From a bacterium (lineage in GTDB: Bacteria > Patescibacteriota > Minisyncoccia > Minisyncoccales > UBA10102): 35,211 nt of DNA. The stretch is from positions 1-35,211 of the forward strand of contig JAUYMI010000001.1 of NCBI GenBank assembly GCA_030698665.1, given 5' to 3'. Of this stretch, positions 25,481 through 31,648 are shown piece by piece. The notes beneath the pieces were generated by a model. The model was not told the DNA's origin and did no database searches. It saw nothing but the letters and a program-made list of their open reading frames with translations. The position numbers and the translations under genes were made by a program. Within the stretch, counting starts at the first letter, position 1, and each line of letters opens with the position of its first letter.

Positions 25481-26343
25481 CGCACATTCCCGTTCTTTCA
25501 AAAGAAGTGATCTCCCTTCTGCGCCTGGGGCCCAACCAGAACTTCATTGACTGTACTCTTGGAACGGCGGGGCACACGCTCCAGCTCTTACAAGAAACCC
25601 GGCCCAACGGACGGACTCTGGGTATCGAGCGGGATCCAGAGCAGGCAAAGAAGGCCAGAGAGGTTATCTCCAAGGCGGGATTCGCCTCCCGGGTTACCAT
25701 CGCGCAGGACACCTTCGCCAACATAGCTGAGATCGCGAGAAGGGAACGTTTCCGTGCGGTGCACGCTATCCTCTTTGATCTCGGGTTTTCCTCAGAGCAG
25801 CTGGGATCTGGGCGCGGACTCTCCTTTTCAAAGTCAGAGCCTCTGGACATGAGGTATGATCCTTCAACCCAGACCACGGCCGCAAAGATTCTCAACTACC
25901 AGAGCCGCCATGAGCTAGAGCGCATCCTCAAAGAGTACGGGGAAGAGCGCTATGCCAGGCAGATAGCCGAGGCAATCGTCAAAGCTCGCCCTTTGCACAC
26001 TACCTTCCAGCTGAGAGAACTCATTGAGAAGACAGTGCCCGGAAAACACCAGCCGATCCATCCTGCGACAAGAACCTTCCAGGCCTTACGGATCGCGGTG
26101 AACGAAGAACTTGATCATCTGAGAGCGGCCCTCCCCCAGGCGGCAGAGACCCTGGCTCCTGGAGGAAGGCTCGCTGTCATTTCCTTCCATTCGCTGGAAG
26201 ACCGGATCGTGAAAGAGTTTTTCCGAGACGAGGAAACCCTGAACATAGTTACCAAGAAGCCCGTTACCGCAAGCGTCCAAGAAATACAAACCAACAGAAG
26301 CTCGCGCTCAGCAAAACTGCGTGTCGCTGAAAAGACATTATGA
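25477..26343 (+). CDS. rsmH: 16S rRNA (cytosine1402-N4)-methyltransferase
   Basis: HIPVLSKEVISLL, DCTLGTAGHT, LFDLGFSSEQL, QALRIAVNEELD, VISFHSLEDRIVKEFF. Confidence 0.97.
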   Translation: MTHIPVLSKEVISLLRLGPNQNFIDCTLGTAGHTLQLLQETRPNGRTLGIERDPEQAKKAREVISKAGFASRVTIAQDTFANIAEIARRERFRAVHAILFDLGFSSEQLGSGRGLSFSKSEPLDMRYDPSTQTTAAKILNYQSRHELERILKEYGEERYARQIAEAIVKARPLHTTFQLRELIEKTVPGKHQPIHPATRTFQALRIAVNEELDHLRAALPQAAETLAPGGRLAVISFHSLEDRIVKEFFRDEETLNIVTKKPVTASVQEIQTNRSSRSAKLRVAEKTL

Positions 26344-26645
26344 ATCTCAGCATACAGAAAGTCGCCAACCCATACCTGATCCTTGGAGCAGGAGCATTCC
26401 TGGCCTCGCTTCTCTTTGGCTGGTATCTGTTTCAGCTTCAGGGGCTCACGGAAACCGCGTACCGCGTTTCGGTTTTGGAAGCTCACGCGCAAGAGCTCCA
26501 ACGATCTCTTTCCACCATGCGTTCTGTCTCAGGGGCATCCTCAACAGCTTCCTTGGAGGGGTTGGCCGGTCAGCTAGGATTTGAGCGCGCTAAAACAATC
26601 CAGTATATTAGAATATTGGAACCTGCTGTGGCACAGAACAGATAA
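26340..26645 (+). CDS. FtsL-like small bitopic membrane protein
   Basis: Position between rsmH and ftsI; single TM then coiled-coil-like segment. Confidence 0.65.
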   Translation: MNLSIQKVANPYLILGAGAFLASLLFGWYLFQLQGLTETAYRVSVLEAHAQELQRSLSTMRSVSGASSTASLEGLAGQLGFERAKTIQYIRILEPAVAQNR

Positions 26646-28327
26646 TGAAAGACTGGAGAATTCTCCTCAGCTTTGCTTTCCTGTTTGCATTTGGAGCGGC
26701 CATCACCGGCCGCTTAGCCGTTCTGCAGATCGTGAATCATGGCTTCTACGGCGCCTTGGCTCAAGGCCAGCAGAATCTCACTGAGCCACAGTGGGGAGAA
26801 AGGGGAAGTATCTTCCTCCAGGGGAGGAGAGGAGAGCTTGTTCCTGTTGCCACAACCAGGGAAACAGCACTCGTTTTCCTCTCACCTCCCGAGGTTGAGA
26901 ATCCTGAGGAGACGGCCCAGGTGTTAGCTGGCATCCTGAACATCAGCCCGCAAGAGATTCTTAGCCGAGCCCTGAGAGAAAATAGCTTGTTTGAGGTATT
27001 GAAAAAGGACATACCCGCAGATACGGCTTTTCTTGTTGAAAACCTCAAGCTTCCTGGCGTGTACGTGGAGTTTGAGGGGGTGAGAGTGTATCCCGAGGGC
27101 GAGTTTGCCGCCCAGATGCTGGGATTCACCAATGCGGATCGGCAAGGGCAGTACGGCGTGGAGGAGGCATATAATAGGGAGCTGGCGGGAAAAGAGGGGT
27201 TCGTGCGCCTGGCAGCAAATCCCGGTACATACCTGAGACCTTCTGGCTTGTCTGAGCCCGAGGACGGGCAAGACCTCGTTTTAACGATAGATTACAACAT
27301 TCAAAGGGAGGCTGAGCGTTTGCTGGGGGCGGCGAGAGAAGATTTGAACTTTGAATCAGGGTCTGCTTTGGTCGTGGAACCGAGTTCGGGAAAGGTCCTG
27401 GCGATGGCCACTGTTCCAAGCTTTGACCCGAACCAGTACGGCAAGGTTTCTGACCTCTCGGTTTTCCAGAACCCCATTACTCAAGGACTTTTTGAGCCGG
27501 GTTCCATCTTCAAGCCCATTACCATGGCTTCCGCGATTGAAGAGGGCAGGGTGCTTCCCACTACGACCTATATGGATACGGGCAGGGTGCAGATCGGAGG
27601 TGCGAGCATTGAGAACTATGACCAGCGGATGTGGGGGGAACGCACCATGACCGAGGTGCTGGAGTACTCCATCAACACGGGGGCGGTCTTTGCCGAGCGT
27701 CAGCTCGGAAACAAGAGCTTCCTCTCGTACATTGAGCGTTTCGGGTTTCTTCGTCCGACCGGAATTGATCTTCCGGGAGAGGCCTTCTCTGAGAACCGGG
27801 AATTCAGAAAAGGATATGAGATCAACTTTGTCACGGCTGCTTTCGGACAGGGCATTGAGATGACGCCTCTGCAGATAGCTCGCGCCTTCACCGCTTTGGC
27901 GAACAATGGGGTCATGACGACCCCTTATGTCGCTGAGCTTGCGGGGGACAGGGCATTGGGACCACAAGAGGATCCTCAGCGCGTCATCTCAGCTAAAACG
28001 GCTTCCCAGATTACCTCTATGCTCGTGTCGGTCACGGAACACGGGTACGCAAAGTCAGCCCGCGTGCCCGGGTACTACGTGGCCGGCAAAACGGGAACAG
28101 CCCAGATATCATATTCTGCCCTAGGTATTCCTAAAGCAGGGTATTCTGAGAAAACAAATCAGTCCTTCATCGGGTATGCTCCAGCTTTCAACCCGAGGTT
28201 TCTCGTTCTCATCAAACTCCAGAACCCTGAGACCAACACGGCCGAGTATTCAGCTGTCCCCATCTTTCAAAACTTGGCAAAGTACATCATTGACTACTAC
28301 GAAATTCCCCCGGACTACGAACCTTGA
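26645..28327 (+). CDS. ftsI: Peptidoglycan D,D-transpeptidase FtsI/PBP2-like
   Basis: SxxK in EPGSIFKPIT, SINTGAV, KTGTAQISY. Confidence 0.93.
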   Translation: MKDWRILLSFAFLFAFGAAITGRLAVLQIVNHGFYGALAQGQQNLTEPQWGERGSIFLQGRRGELVPVATTRETALVFLSPPEVENPEETAQVLAGILNISPQEILSRALRENSLFEVLKKDIPADTAFLVENLKLPGVYVEFEGVRVYPEGEFAAQMLGFTNADRQGQYGVEEAYNRELAGKEGFVRLAANPGTYLRPSGLSEPEDGQDLVLTIDYNIQREAERLLGAAREDLNFESGSALVVEPSSGKVLAMATVPSFDPNQYGKVSDLSVFQNPITQGLFEPGSIFKPITMASAIEEGRVLPTTTYMDTGRVQIGGASIENYDQRMWGERTMTEVLEYSINTGAVFAERQLGNKSFLSYIERFGFLRPTGIDLPGEAFSENREFRKGYEINFVTAAFGQGIEMTPLQIARAFTALANNGVMTTPYVAELAGDRALGPQEDPQRVISAKTASQITSMLVSVTEHGYAKSARVPGYYVAGKTGTAQISYSALGIPKAGYSEKTNQSFIGYAPAFNPRFLVLIKLQNPETNTAEYSAVPIFQNLAKYIIDYYEIPPDYEP

Positions 28328-28742: not shown

Positions 28743-28815
28743 GGTCCCATCGTCTAGTGGCCCAGGACGCCAGGTTCTCATCCTGGTAACAGGGGTTCGA
28801 CTCCCCTTGGGACCG
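28743..28815 (+). tRNA. tRNA-Glu (CUC)
   Basis: GGTCCCA/TGGGACC acceptor, CCAGG-TTCTCAT-CCTGG anticodon arm, T-arm AGGGGTTCGACTCCCCT. Confidence 0.92.
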
Positions 28816-28858
28816 CAAAGCACTCTGACCCACTGCTTAAGTCGCCTTGGGGTTTTTG

Positions 28859-28999
28859 CGTCGCTTCGTTACGCTCACTCCTATTTTTCCACCACGGAGT
28901 GATTTGTGGAGTCGAACCCTAAGAGAGGGGACGGGAGAGAAGAATTCTTTCCCGTGGCGGAAATATTAAAACCGAGGGGTTTTAAAGAGCGAAGCGACG
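28859..28999. repeat. Imperfect inverted repeat with nested hairpins
   Basis: CGTCGCTTCG (28859-28868) vs CGAAGCGACG (28990-28999); ATTTTTCCACCACGG (28883-28897) vs CCGTGGCGGAAATAT (28952-28966). Confidence 0.75.
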
Positions 29000-29023
29000 G
29001 GTTCCACTCCCCTTAGACCGCCA
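28999..29023 (+). repeat. Duplicated tRNA-Glu 3'-end-like sequence
   Basis: GGGTTCCACTCCCCTTAGACCGCCA resembles tRNA-Glu end GGGTTCGACTCCCCTTGGGACCGCA. Confidence 0.75.
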
Positions 29024-29062
29024 CGTTATTAAAAACTGCCGGAGTTTGATACAATGTATTCC

Positions 29063-31648
29063 ATGGAACAGCAGCCATGGCACTCGCTCACGGCAGAAAA
29101 AACAGCCGAGCTTCTCAGTACGGATATTGAAACCGGACTCTCCTTACAAGAGGTTGTCTTGAGACGAAAAGAGTTTGGGGAGAACAGGCTTCCCGAAGAG
29201 AAGGCTCCTTCGCGCCTCCTCATTTTCGCAAAGCAGTTCCGCAGCCCTCTCATCCTCATCCTTGTCGCCGCTGGCGCGGTGACGCTCGTGCTCGGAGAGC
29301 ATACGGACAGCGCCGTTATCTTCGGGGCGGTCGTGCTCAACACCTTCATAGGGTACTTCCAGGAGAACAAGGCAAGTCAGACGCTCGCGGCCCTCAAGAA
29401 GGTCCTCAGGGTGCGGGCTTTGGTTTTTCGGGGAGGCAAAGAACACGAGGTCGCTGAGGCAGATCTTGTCCCGGGAGATCTCGTCAAGCTCGCGCCGGGC
29501 AGCAAGGCCCCGGCAGACGGGAGGGTCGTGGCGAGCTCGGGACTCGAGATCAACGAGGCCGTGCTGACAGGGGAGTGGATTTCCTCTGTGAAGAGTGCAG
29601 AACCCATTTCGCAGGATACCCCGTTAGCTGATCGCGATAGCATGGCATACCAGGGAAGCGTGGTTACGGAAGGGGAGGGCATGATGCTTGTGACCGCCAC
29701 TGGAGCGACAACGGAACTCGGAACCATTGCACAGCTTGTACAGAGAGCAAAAGAGGAGGAGACGCCGTACCAGGCGCGCCTCAAGCGCTTCTCGTGGTTA
29801 ATCGGTGGAATCGTCGGCATCCTGGCCATCCTCATCTTTGCCATTGGCATTGTGAAGGGAGGGGACTTTCTTGAGATGTTCACAACCGCTGTTGCCGTGG
29901 CCGTTGCAGCGGTACCAGAAGGCCTTCCCGTTGCCATCACCGTGGTCTTGGCCATTGGCATGCGCCGCATTTTAGCTGAGCGGGGACTGGTCCGCCACCT
30001 CACCTCAGCTGAAACCCTTGGGAGTACCTCTGTAATCGCAACAGACAAGACCCTCACCCTTACTGAGGGAAAGATGCGCATGGAAGAACTTGAGCTTGGC
30101 TCAGGAGTAGCCAGAGACGAAGCCCTGAGTGTCGCAGCGCTCGCAAATGAGGCCTTTGCAGAAGAGGTCAAGGGAAGCGTCATACTCCGTGGCAGGCCGA
30201 CTGACAAGGCGCTTTTAGAAACTGCCATGGAGGAGGGAATCGTGCCAGAGGAACTCATTCTGGACTTTCCGCTTCTCAGGCGCGTACCCTTTAATACGAA
30301 GAATAAGTACGTGGCGTCATTTCACCAGCACGGCAAGAACATCCTTCTGGCGGTCGCAGGAGCTCCTGAGTCCGTCATCGCCGCCTCTCGTCTTACGAAG
30401 CTGGAGGCAGAGGAGGCGCACAAGCGCCTTGAGGCAATGGCAGGCAGGGGACTCAGAGTCGTTGCGCTCGCCAAGCGTGAGATCAGAGGCAAGACCCTGG
30501 ATCCCAGCCAAGAAATCTCCCGCCTGACCCTCTTGGGGTTTGCCGGGTTCAAAGACCCTCTTCGTCCTGGAGTCAAAGAAGCCATCCTGGCCGCGCGACT
30601 GGCTGGTGTGAGGACGGTGATTGTCACGGGAGACCACGCTCTTACGGCAAAGAGCGTCGCTCTGGAACTCGGCATGGAGGTTGAGGATGGTGGTCTCATG
30701 GAGGGCAGGGAGCTGGATACCGTCTCAGATGAAGACCTGGATATGAGGCTTGAGCGTGTCGTTGTCTTTGCCCGCGTGGAACCGGCCCACAAGCTGAGGA
30801 TCATTGAGGCGTGGCAGAGGAAAGGGGAGGTCATTGCGATGACCGGAGACGGGGTCAATGACGCCCCCGCCCTCAAGAGGGCGGATATCGGAATCGCCCT
30901 GGGTTCCGCTACCGATGTGGCAAAAGAGTCCTCGGACCTCGTGCTTTTAGACGACAACTTTCAGGTTATCTCATCTGCCATCCGAGAGGGCAGGGTCATT
31001 TTAGACAACGCCCAGAAAGCCATCACCTTTCTCCTCTCAGGTTCCTTTTCTGAAACGCTCCTCATTGGTTCAGCCCTGTTCTTCGGACTTCCCCTCCCGG
31101 TTACTGCCATTCAGATTCTCTGGATCAACATCGTTGAGTCAGGACTCCCGGGCATAGCCCTTACCTTTGAGAAAATGGAAGGAGATGTGATGTCTCGCCC
31201 GCCGCAGAAAAAGGATGGGGAGCTTCTGAATCCTGAGATGAAGGTCATTATTTTTGCCGTCAGCATATTCACGGATATCCTTCTCATTCTGGTCTTTCTC
31301 GGACTTCTCTCCACGACCTACTCCATTGAGCACATCAGAACCTTTCTCTTTGCTGCGCTCGCCACGGACTCCCTCCTCTATGCTTTCTCCTGCAAGAGCC
31401 TGCGCCGCAACATCTGGGAGTATTCCCTATTTTCCAACAGGTATTTGAACATGGCGCTCGCGGGAAGCTTCGCTCTCCTGCTAGGCACAATATACCTGCC
31501 GTTCTTCCAGAATCTCTTTCATACGGTTGCCCTGAACGCGATTGATTGGGGGGTACTGGCTCTCATCGCGTTTCTCAATGTCCTTCTCATTGAAGGTGCA
31601 AAGTGGTACTTTATTAAAAAGCGTGCGCCATCACTCTCCGGGTCATGA
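29063..31648 (+). CDS. P-type cation ATPase (Ca2+-ATPase-like) with DKTLT in place of DKTGT; upstream in-frame ATG at 29054
   Basis: PEGLPVAITVVLAIGMRRIL, ATDKTLTLTEGKM, TGDGVNDAPALKRADIGIALG, VARVEP-like VFARVEPAHKLRII. Confidence 0.93.
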   Translation: MEQQPWHSLTAEKTAELLSTDIETGLSLQEVVLRRKEFGENRLPEEKAPSRLLIFAKQFRSPLILILVAAGAVTLVLGEHTDSAVIFGAVVLNTFIGYFQENKASQTLAALKKVLRVRALVFRGGKEHEVAEADLVPGDLVKLAPGSKAPADGRVVASSGLEINEAVLTGEWISSVKSAEPISQDTPLADRDSMAYQGSVVTEGEGMMLVTATGATTELGTIAQLVQRAKEEETPYQARLKRFSWLIGGIVGILAILIFAIGIVKGGDFLEMFTTAVAVAVAAVPEGLPVAITVVLAIGMRRILAERGLVRHLTSAETLGSTSVIATDKTLTLTEGKMRMEELELGSGVARDEALSVAALANEAFAEEVKGSVILRGRPTDKALLETAMEEGIVPEELILDFPLLRRVPFNTKNKYVASFHQHGKNILLAVAGAPESVIAASRLTKLEAEEAHKRLEAMAGRGLRVVALAKREIRGKTLDPSQEISRLTLLGFAGFKDPLRPGVKEAILAARLAGVRTVIVTGDHALTAKSVALELGMEVEDGGLMEGRELDTVSDEDLDMRLERVVVFARVEPAHKLRIIEAWQRKGEVIAMTGDGVNDAPALKRADIGIALGSATDVAKESSDLVLLDDNFQVISSAIREGRVILDNAQKAITFLLSGSFSETLLIGSALFFGLPLPVTAIQILWINIVESGLPGIALTFEKMEGDVMSRPPQKKDGELLNPEMKVIIFAVSIFTDILLILVFLGLLSTTYSIEHIRTFLFAALATDSLLYAFSCKSLRRNIWEYSLFSNRYLNMALAGSFALLLGTIYLPFFQNLFHTVALNAIDWGVLALIAFLNVLLIEGAKWYFIKKRAPSLSGS

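Follow-up and report, generated by a model that had tools for sequence, protein, structure and literature searches.

The window analysed here, a 35,211-nt stretch from a genome assembly of 572 kb, carries a tRNA-Glu gene whose 3' end recurs downstream, and the question is what lies between the two ends: the scar of tRNA-targeted integration, a small mobile repeat, or a stable RNA of the locus. The duplication described in the sequence-only reading is real, as GGGTTCGACTCCCCTT (28793-28808) is repeated as GGGTTCCACTCCCCTT (28999-29014) with 15 of 16 positions identical. The inverted arms between the tRNA ends are present as well, with CGTCGCTTCG/CGAAGCGACG confirmed at 28859-28868 and 28990-28999 and ATTTTTCCACCACGG/CCGTGGCGGAAATAT forming an imperfect pair in the spacer. 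A T-arm piece in reverse had been placed at 28905-28916; it exists as a perfect inverted 12-mer, and its position is 28908-28919. The picture of a single ~200-bp inverted-repeat spacer has to be replaced. Comparison with relatives indicates that the spacer is two related elements in opposite orientation, named the A form (minus strand) and the B form (plus strand), and the inverted arms arise because the two share motifs in opposite orientation. The features of the locus are as follows.

28743-28816, plus strand: tRNA-Glu(CTC), the functional target gene, with the restored copy as its 3' end (ARAGORN; Rfam RF00005, 60.3 bits)
28793-28804, plus strand: target arm a in its intact copy, T-arm GGGTTCGACTCC
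28817-28905, minus strand: A-form element with its core on the minus strand, assigned from A-form relatives (L013, L014, L034, L036 and others)
28817-28825 and 28896-28905, minus strand: closing stem of the A form, AAAGCACTC and GGAGTGATTT
Within 28817-28905, minus strand: further A-form parts, motif GTGGTGGAAAAATAGGAG and a variable hairpin with CGAAGCGAC
About 28908-29023, plus strand: B-form element
28908-28919, plus strand: a-prime GGAGTCGAACCC, perfect reverse complement of the T-arm target
28920-28930, plus strand: purine strand TAAGAGAGGGG, mirror of the P1 5' arm, with mirror covariation in the family
28933-28953, plus strand: hairpin P1, GGGAGAGAA / TTCTTTCCC
28954-28965, plus strand: conserved unpaired motif GTGGCGGAAATA (family form GTGNNGGAAA)
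28966-28985, plus strand: hairpin P2, TTAAAACC-GAGG-GGTTTTAA
28987-28998, plus strand: right end motif GAGCGAAGCGAC (variable hairpin P3), followed by the insertion junction
28999-29023, plus strand: second, non-functional tRNA-Glu 3' end GGGTTCCACTCCCCTTAGACCGCCA, equal to the right copy of related insertions
29054-31648, plus strand: next downstream gene, an 864-codon ORF from the ORF list, given for context only

The 219-nt spacer folds better than its dinucleotide shuffles (z -2.4, or -2.8 with the tRNA included) and the same arrangement is found at unrelated places, so it goes beyond chance. An Rfam search returned only tRNAs in the window and no match on the elements of 11 element loci.

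The check that had been proposed, a search for copies in relatives, was positive. Searched alone, the spacer has matches in 21 of 60 related genomes, counting the window's own, as separate blocks A and B and at up to 13 places per genome. Family copies were detected by simple sequence patterns, which proved sufficiently specific, and the strict B pattern, GGGTCGGG-N-CCCGTNNNGGAA, occurs in 62 of the 247 genomes of the order with up to 15 matches per genome; the reversed-pattern control gave zero matches in the same 247. The B pattern was also found in more than 100 contigs, nearly all from Patescibacteria, with labels including Yonath-, Taylor-, Jorgensen-, Wolfe-, Colwell-, Staskawicz- and Liptonbacteria; the family contigs outside the window's genome are labelled Parcubacteria-type Patescibacteria. 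One typical B element with flanking repeat (L065) sits on a contig labelled Bacteriovorax and binned outside Patescibacteria, which is probably misbinned. A match at G000:C16:14538 (L003) inside an intein-like ORF was taken as chance, and pattern scans of IMG/VR for phage carriage gave one match, which was not convincing. No description of the family was found in the open-access literature (preprints were not covered, and a prior description is possible). The mobile repeat is widespread in the streamlined genomes of Patescibacteria and, so far, apparently undescribed.

The window's own genome holds one further copy, of a third, C form (C10:6476). The subfamily of the window, recognised by a P1 with apex GAAGNATTC, recurs in other genera at fusA and rpsI in G002, gyrB in G003 and tRNA-Lys in G001; the cores of these copies are nearly identical and the targets unrelated. 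Two different cores are stacked at the single rpsI site. Copies with identical cores and tandem units in G043 suggest recent activity there. A tandem array of identical units with a period of 163 bp lies at a tRNA gene of the same genome (L171, G043:C2, about 26330-26660), and the G003 gyrB locus (L008) has an ORF with intein-like sequence.

The anatomy of the B copies was then compared across the family. A direct repeat scoring at least 13 surrounds the core in 120 of 204 B copies, versus 1% for shuffled flanks, with a median offset of 180 bp and a median length of 29 bp. The unit between the repeats measures 94-317 bp in these 120 copies, and the duplicated target spans 14-100 bp in the B copies, with varying targets. 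No direct repeat was found in 75 of 194 copies, so some are decayed or were inserted otherwise. Between the first repeat and the core, 79% of copies carry the reverse complement of their own target, while the targets of other copies match in 4%. This a-prime segment has a median length of 15.5 nt and is a closer match to the left, intact copy than to the remnant on the right, and the inverted pair a-prime/a flanks the folded core. The duplicated part is a same-strand tRNA 3' part in 55 copies, where the repeat most commonly (18/55) starts in the T-loop, at a distance of 18 nt from the 3' end of the tRNA. Another 27 copies duplicate the 3' terminus of an ORF on the same strand and about 22 the start of one on the opposite strand, both by automatic call with a few misassigned. 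Among ten targets, EF-Tu-type GTPases, GyrB, S9, RNase H, PGK, S10, GAPDH, L14 and IMS polymerase were confirmed with Pfam; the conserved genes used as targets include pgk, gyrB, EF-G, GAPDH, rnhA and those of ribosomal proteins.

The suspicion of a mobile repeat tied to tRNA ends agrees well with these dispersed copies and their flanking target duplications, while its supposed derivation from a tRNA does not, as the identical core type also lies at protein-gene ends. Nor does anything indicate that a larger integrase element left the locus behind as a scar. The 120 two-flank copies are all small, no version with genes was found, and the copies without a near repeat showed no convincing distant one in the sequence covered, up to 7 kb upstream, so a remnant of a larger island was rejected. 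Like the tRNA islands of integrase type (prophages, ICEs), the elements have a T-loop crossover, a restored tRNA and a 3' fragment left behind; unlike them, they are about 100-300 bp long, lack genes and a dedicated integrase, and use many targets. Partial 3' duplications of another type occur at two further tRNA-Glu genes (L389 in G003 and L372 in G013), the former with a two-hairpin insert in the T-loop of a tRNA-Glu fragment, between GTTCG and AATCC.

Empty sites indicate the direction of insertion. In congeners of G220, pgk runs straight into the next gene with no insert. The right remnant of the G220 pgk and its downstream gene align with several of these congeners (73-75% across some 200 nt), which makes the left part the insert, a 187-bp unit composed of a gene end, S*, followed by a-prime and the core, E. 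The inserted end encodes GEKLPGINALG and the remnant encodes GEELPGIEALNKNE. The differences between S* and the remnant in rnhA, fusA, GAPDH and the EF-G 3' end are largely synonymous or conservative, so S* derives from another functional gene. At the locus of the window, relatives have tRNA-Glu(CTC) genes with up to 96% identity, and what follows these genes is different sequence that lacks the element, against the conservation in all relatives that a stable element would show. A C copy of G024 is likewise absent at the matching place in G022, as judged by eye from the two sequences. Movement is deduced from such comparisons, and no excised form was seen among them. On this evidence, the elements very probably constitute a mobile family that restores its target gene.

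The B mobile unit consists of S*, a-prime and E, with E comprising P1 with its mirror purine strand, the conserved unpaired motif, P2, P3 and an end in ...GCGAC. It very probably enters at the end of a conserved gene, in the window within the T-loop of tRNA-Glu; S* then completes the target gene and the host's own end stays on the right as a remnant. How such a unit might move is a matter of greater doubt. In the mechanism that we propose, the non-autonomous unit may act as folded single-stranded DNA, with pairing of a-prime to the target guiding the insertion and an enzyme supplied in trans cutting and joining. Taken alone, this guided single-strand mechanism is a tentative proposal, and for the target-restoring family and the mechanism weighed together we put the probability at about 0.55. 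In different species the element changes how essential proteins and tRNAs end and, if a-prime is indeed a guide, nature would here provide an example of insertion that is guided by DNA, can be reprogrammed and needs an element of only some 180 bp. Known guide-directed transposition offers no explanation for how a-prime comes to match a new target perfectly; a new matching arm might arise when the template is switched between imperfect inverted repeats. The full scheme, in which gene-less DNA homes to the same gene end across species by a triplex-bearing core and a ~15-nt complementary arm, swaps in foreign gene ends and retargets by copying the target into the arm, is doubtful as a whole.

The strongest alternative holds that a rare primary insertion was followed by spread between species through natural transformation and recombination, whether homologous or by short homology, in which no dedicated enzyme takes part, the gene body serving as left homology and the duplicated end as right homology. 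Patescibacteria are described as competent and many have recombination genes (PMC12455944), S* looks foreign and the right copy native, and no candidate enzyme is common to the element-rich genomes. However, the block shared in most tRNA cases is ~15-25 nt, short for RecA-type recombination, the different cores stacked at the G002 rpsI site are less simply explained, and the origin of the inverted target copy and of the first duplication is not accounted for. We regard this spread as rather unlikely and favour guided single-strand insertion, because of an arrangement like the ends of integron cassettes and a guide like that of IS608. The first likeness lies in a folded body, here putatively single-stranded, between two cores in inverted orientation, the direct core being present at each end of the cassette; in attC sites, structure outweighs sequence (PMC2727003). 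The differences are also clear, as no integron integrase was found, the core is not GTTRRRY but follows each target (e.g. pgk, gyrB), there is no fixed platform, and the cassette is a gene end instead of a whole gene.

The likeness to IS608, which picks its target by base-pairing with a guide located 5' of the hairpin (PMC5934647), also underlies the next alternative, kinship with REP/IS200-IS605 elements and movement by Y1 (TnpA-REP) transposases. Small folded single-strand ends and a guide 5' of a hairpin are points of resemblance to this family, and REPs, which are believed to be mobilised in trans (PMC8266576), are likewise non-coding. Y1 (PF01797) is common, being present in 132 of the 247 genomes of the order (41 of 62 element-positive and 91 of 185 negative), a weak excess with an odds ratio of 2.0 (p 0.027). 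Against this, Y1 was not found in 5 of 16 element-rich genomes (G040, G043, G071, G072 and G194, with 7-15 copies each), and no Y1 gene accompanies the element. Inspection of 20 Y1 genes located a core within a few kb of two and directly flanking none, and several are flanked by short palindromes of their own. The putative guide is longer here, ~12-16 nt or more, and IS608-type insertion occurs 3' of a fixed short target without duplication, whereas insertion here leaves two copies of the target end and a complete gene. Movement by Y1 transposases is thus quite improbable, the association being weak. Among the Patescibacterial TnpA-REP-type Y1 genes with their own palindromes are L392, L393, L395, L396 and L401, e.g. 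with GTTAGACCTCCGAGGTCTAAC.

Other enzymes were searched for in the element-rich genomes. A resolvase is present in 3 of 12 of them, with none common to all, and was rejected. Tyrosine recombinases (PF00589) occur as a rule once per genome, with no dedicated integrase in the element-rich genomes, and the single copy is presumably the host Xer. A dedicated tyrosine recombinase was therefore also discarded as mobiliser. The only candidate present nearly everywhere would be the host Xer.

Features of the fold suggest which strand and which nucleic acid is active in guided insertion. Mismatches in P1 are G-T in 14 cases and A-C in 2, an excess that identifies the folded strand of B as plus. The bases to the left of TC mirror the P1 5' arm, with G.G, A.A or T.A matches and several pair types at variable mirror positions. 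Under a triplex code of G.GC, A.AT and T.AT, 6.2 of 8 triplets agree versus 5.1 for shuffled pairing, with a z of 16.6 that is inflated by the common ancestry of the copies. As far as the code goes, the 5' third strand mirrors the purine arm as in class I intrastrand triplexes, and the purine strand at 28920-28930 is a possible third strand of a purine-motif triplex. BoxC and other triplex motif repeats (PMC4666352) share this class I order of third strand, purine arm and pyrimidine arm; here, in Patescibacteria, the motif is embedded in a larger unit that has several hairpins and duplicates its target. Class I purine-motif intrastrand triplexes cannot form in RNA (PMC4666352) and insertions occur on the opposite strand, from which we infer that DNA rather than RNA is the active form. 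With such a covariation-conserved signature, it would become possible to test directly whether intrastrand DNA triplexes have a biological role.

These two points also bear on a retro-element of RNA, in which a structured RNA would be read together with the host gene end and reverse transcribed into the target. A structured core and target duplications would suit it, and the guide-like a-prime resembles the guide pairing of introns. Yet reverse transcriptase (PF00078) shows no association with the element (odds ratio 1.04), is absent from 13 of 16 element-rich genomes and was rejected as a resident mobiliser. In the about 22 opposite-strand insertions at gene starts, a gene transcript would carry S* antisense, and the mirror strand obeys a code that RNA cannot form (PMC4666352). 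A retro-element is accordingly very improbable. Judged by the tested features, the family does not qualify as a member of IS200/IS605, the integrons, the integrase islands or the retroelements.

The A and C forms possess the motifs of B in a permuted order, with P1 as the closing stem. They are usually preceded by a variable AT-rich hairpin, and the C form is then followed by GTGTGAYCGT; G024 holds 20 A/C-form copies and G001 holds 15. C-form copies are often situated immediately before a start codon, which, together with the strong predicted fold, would suit a stable RNA with a regulatory or processing role in the tRNA operon, a hardly credible reading that is already contradicted for the B form by the missing element at the tRNA-Glu loci of relatives, one core type at unrelated genes on either strand and the lack of any Rfam match. 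MITEs and Rickettsia palindromic elements are short, dispersed and non-autonomous, as are the elements here, which differ in having no terminal inverted repeats of a known transposon and in inserting at gene ends with a target-matched arm. In two species (L025 and L045, in G022 and G024), a C-form copy is in frame at the N-terminus of a ribonuclease HII-like ORF (rnhB 5' region), and in this respect it resembles a Rickettsia palindromic element.
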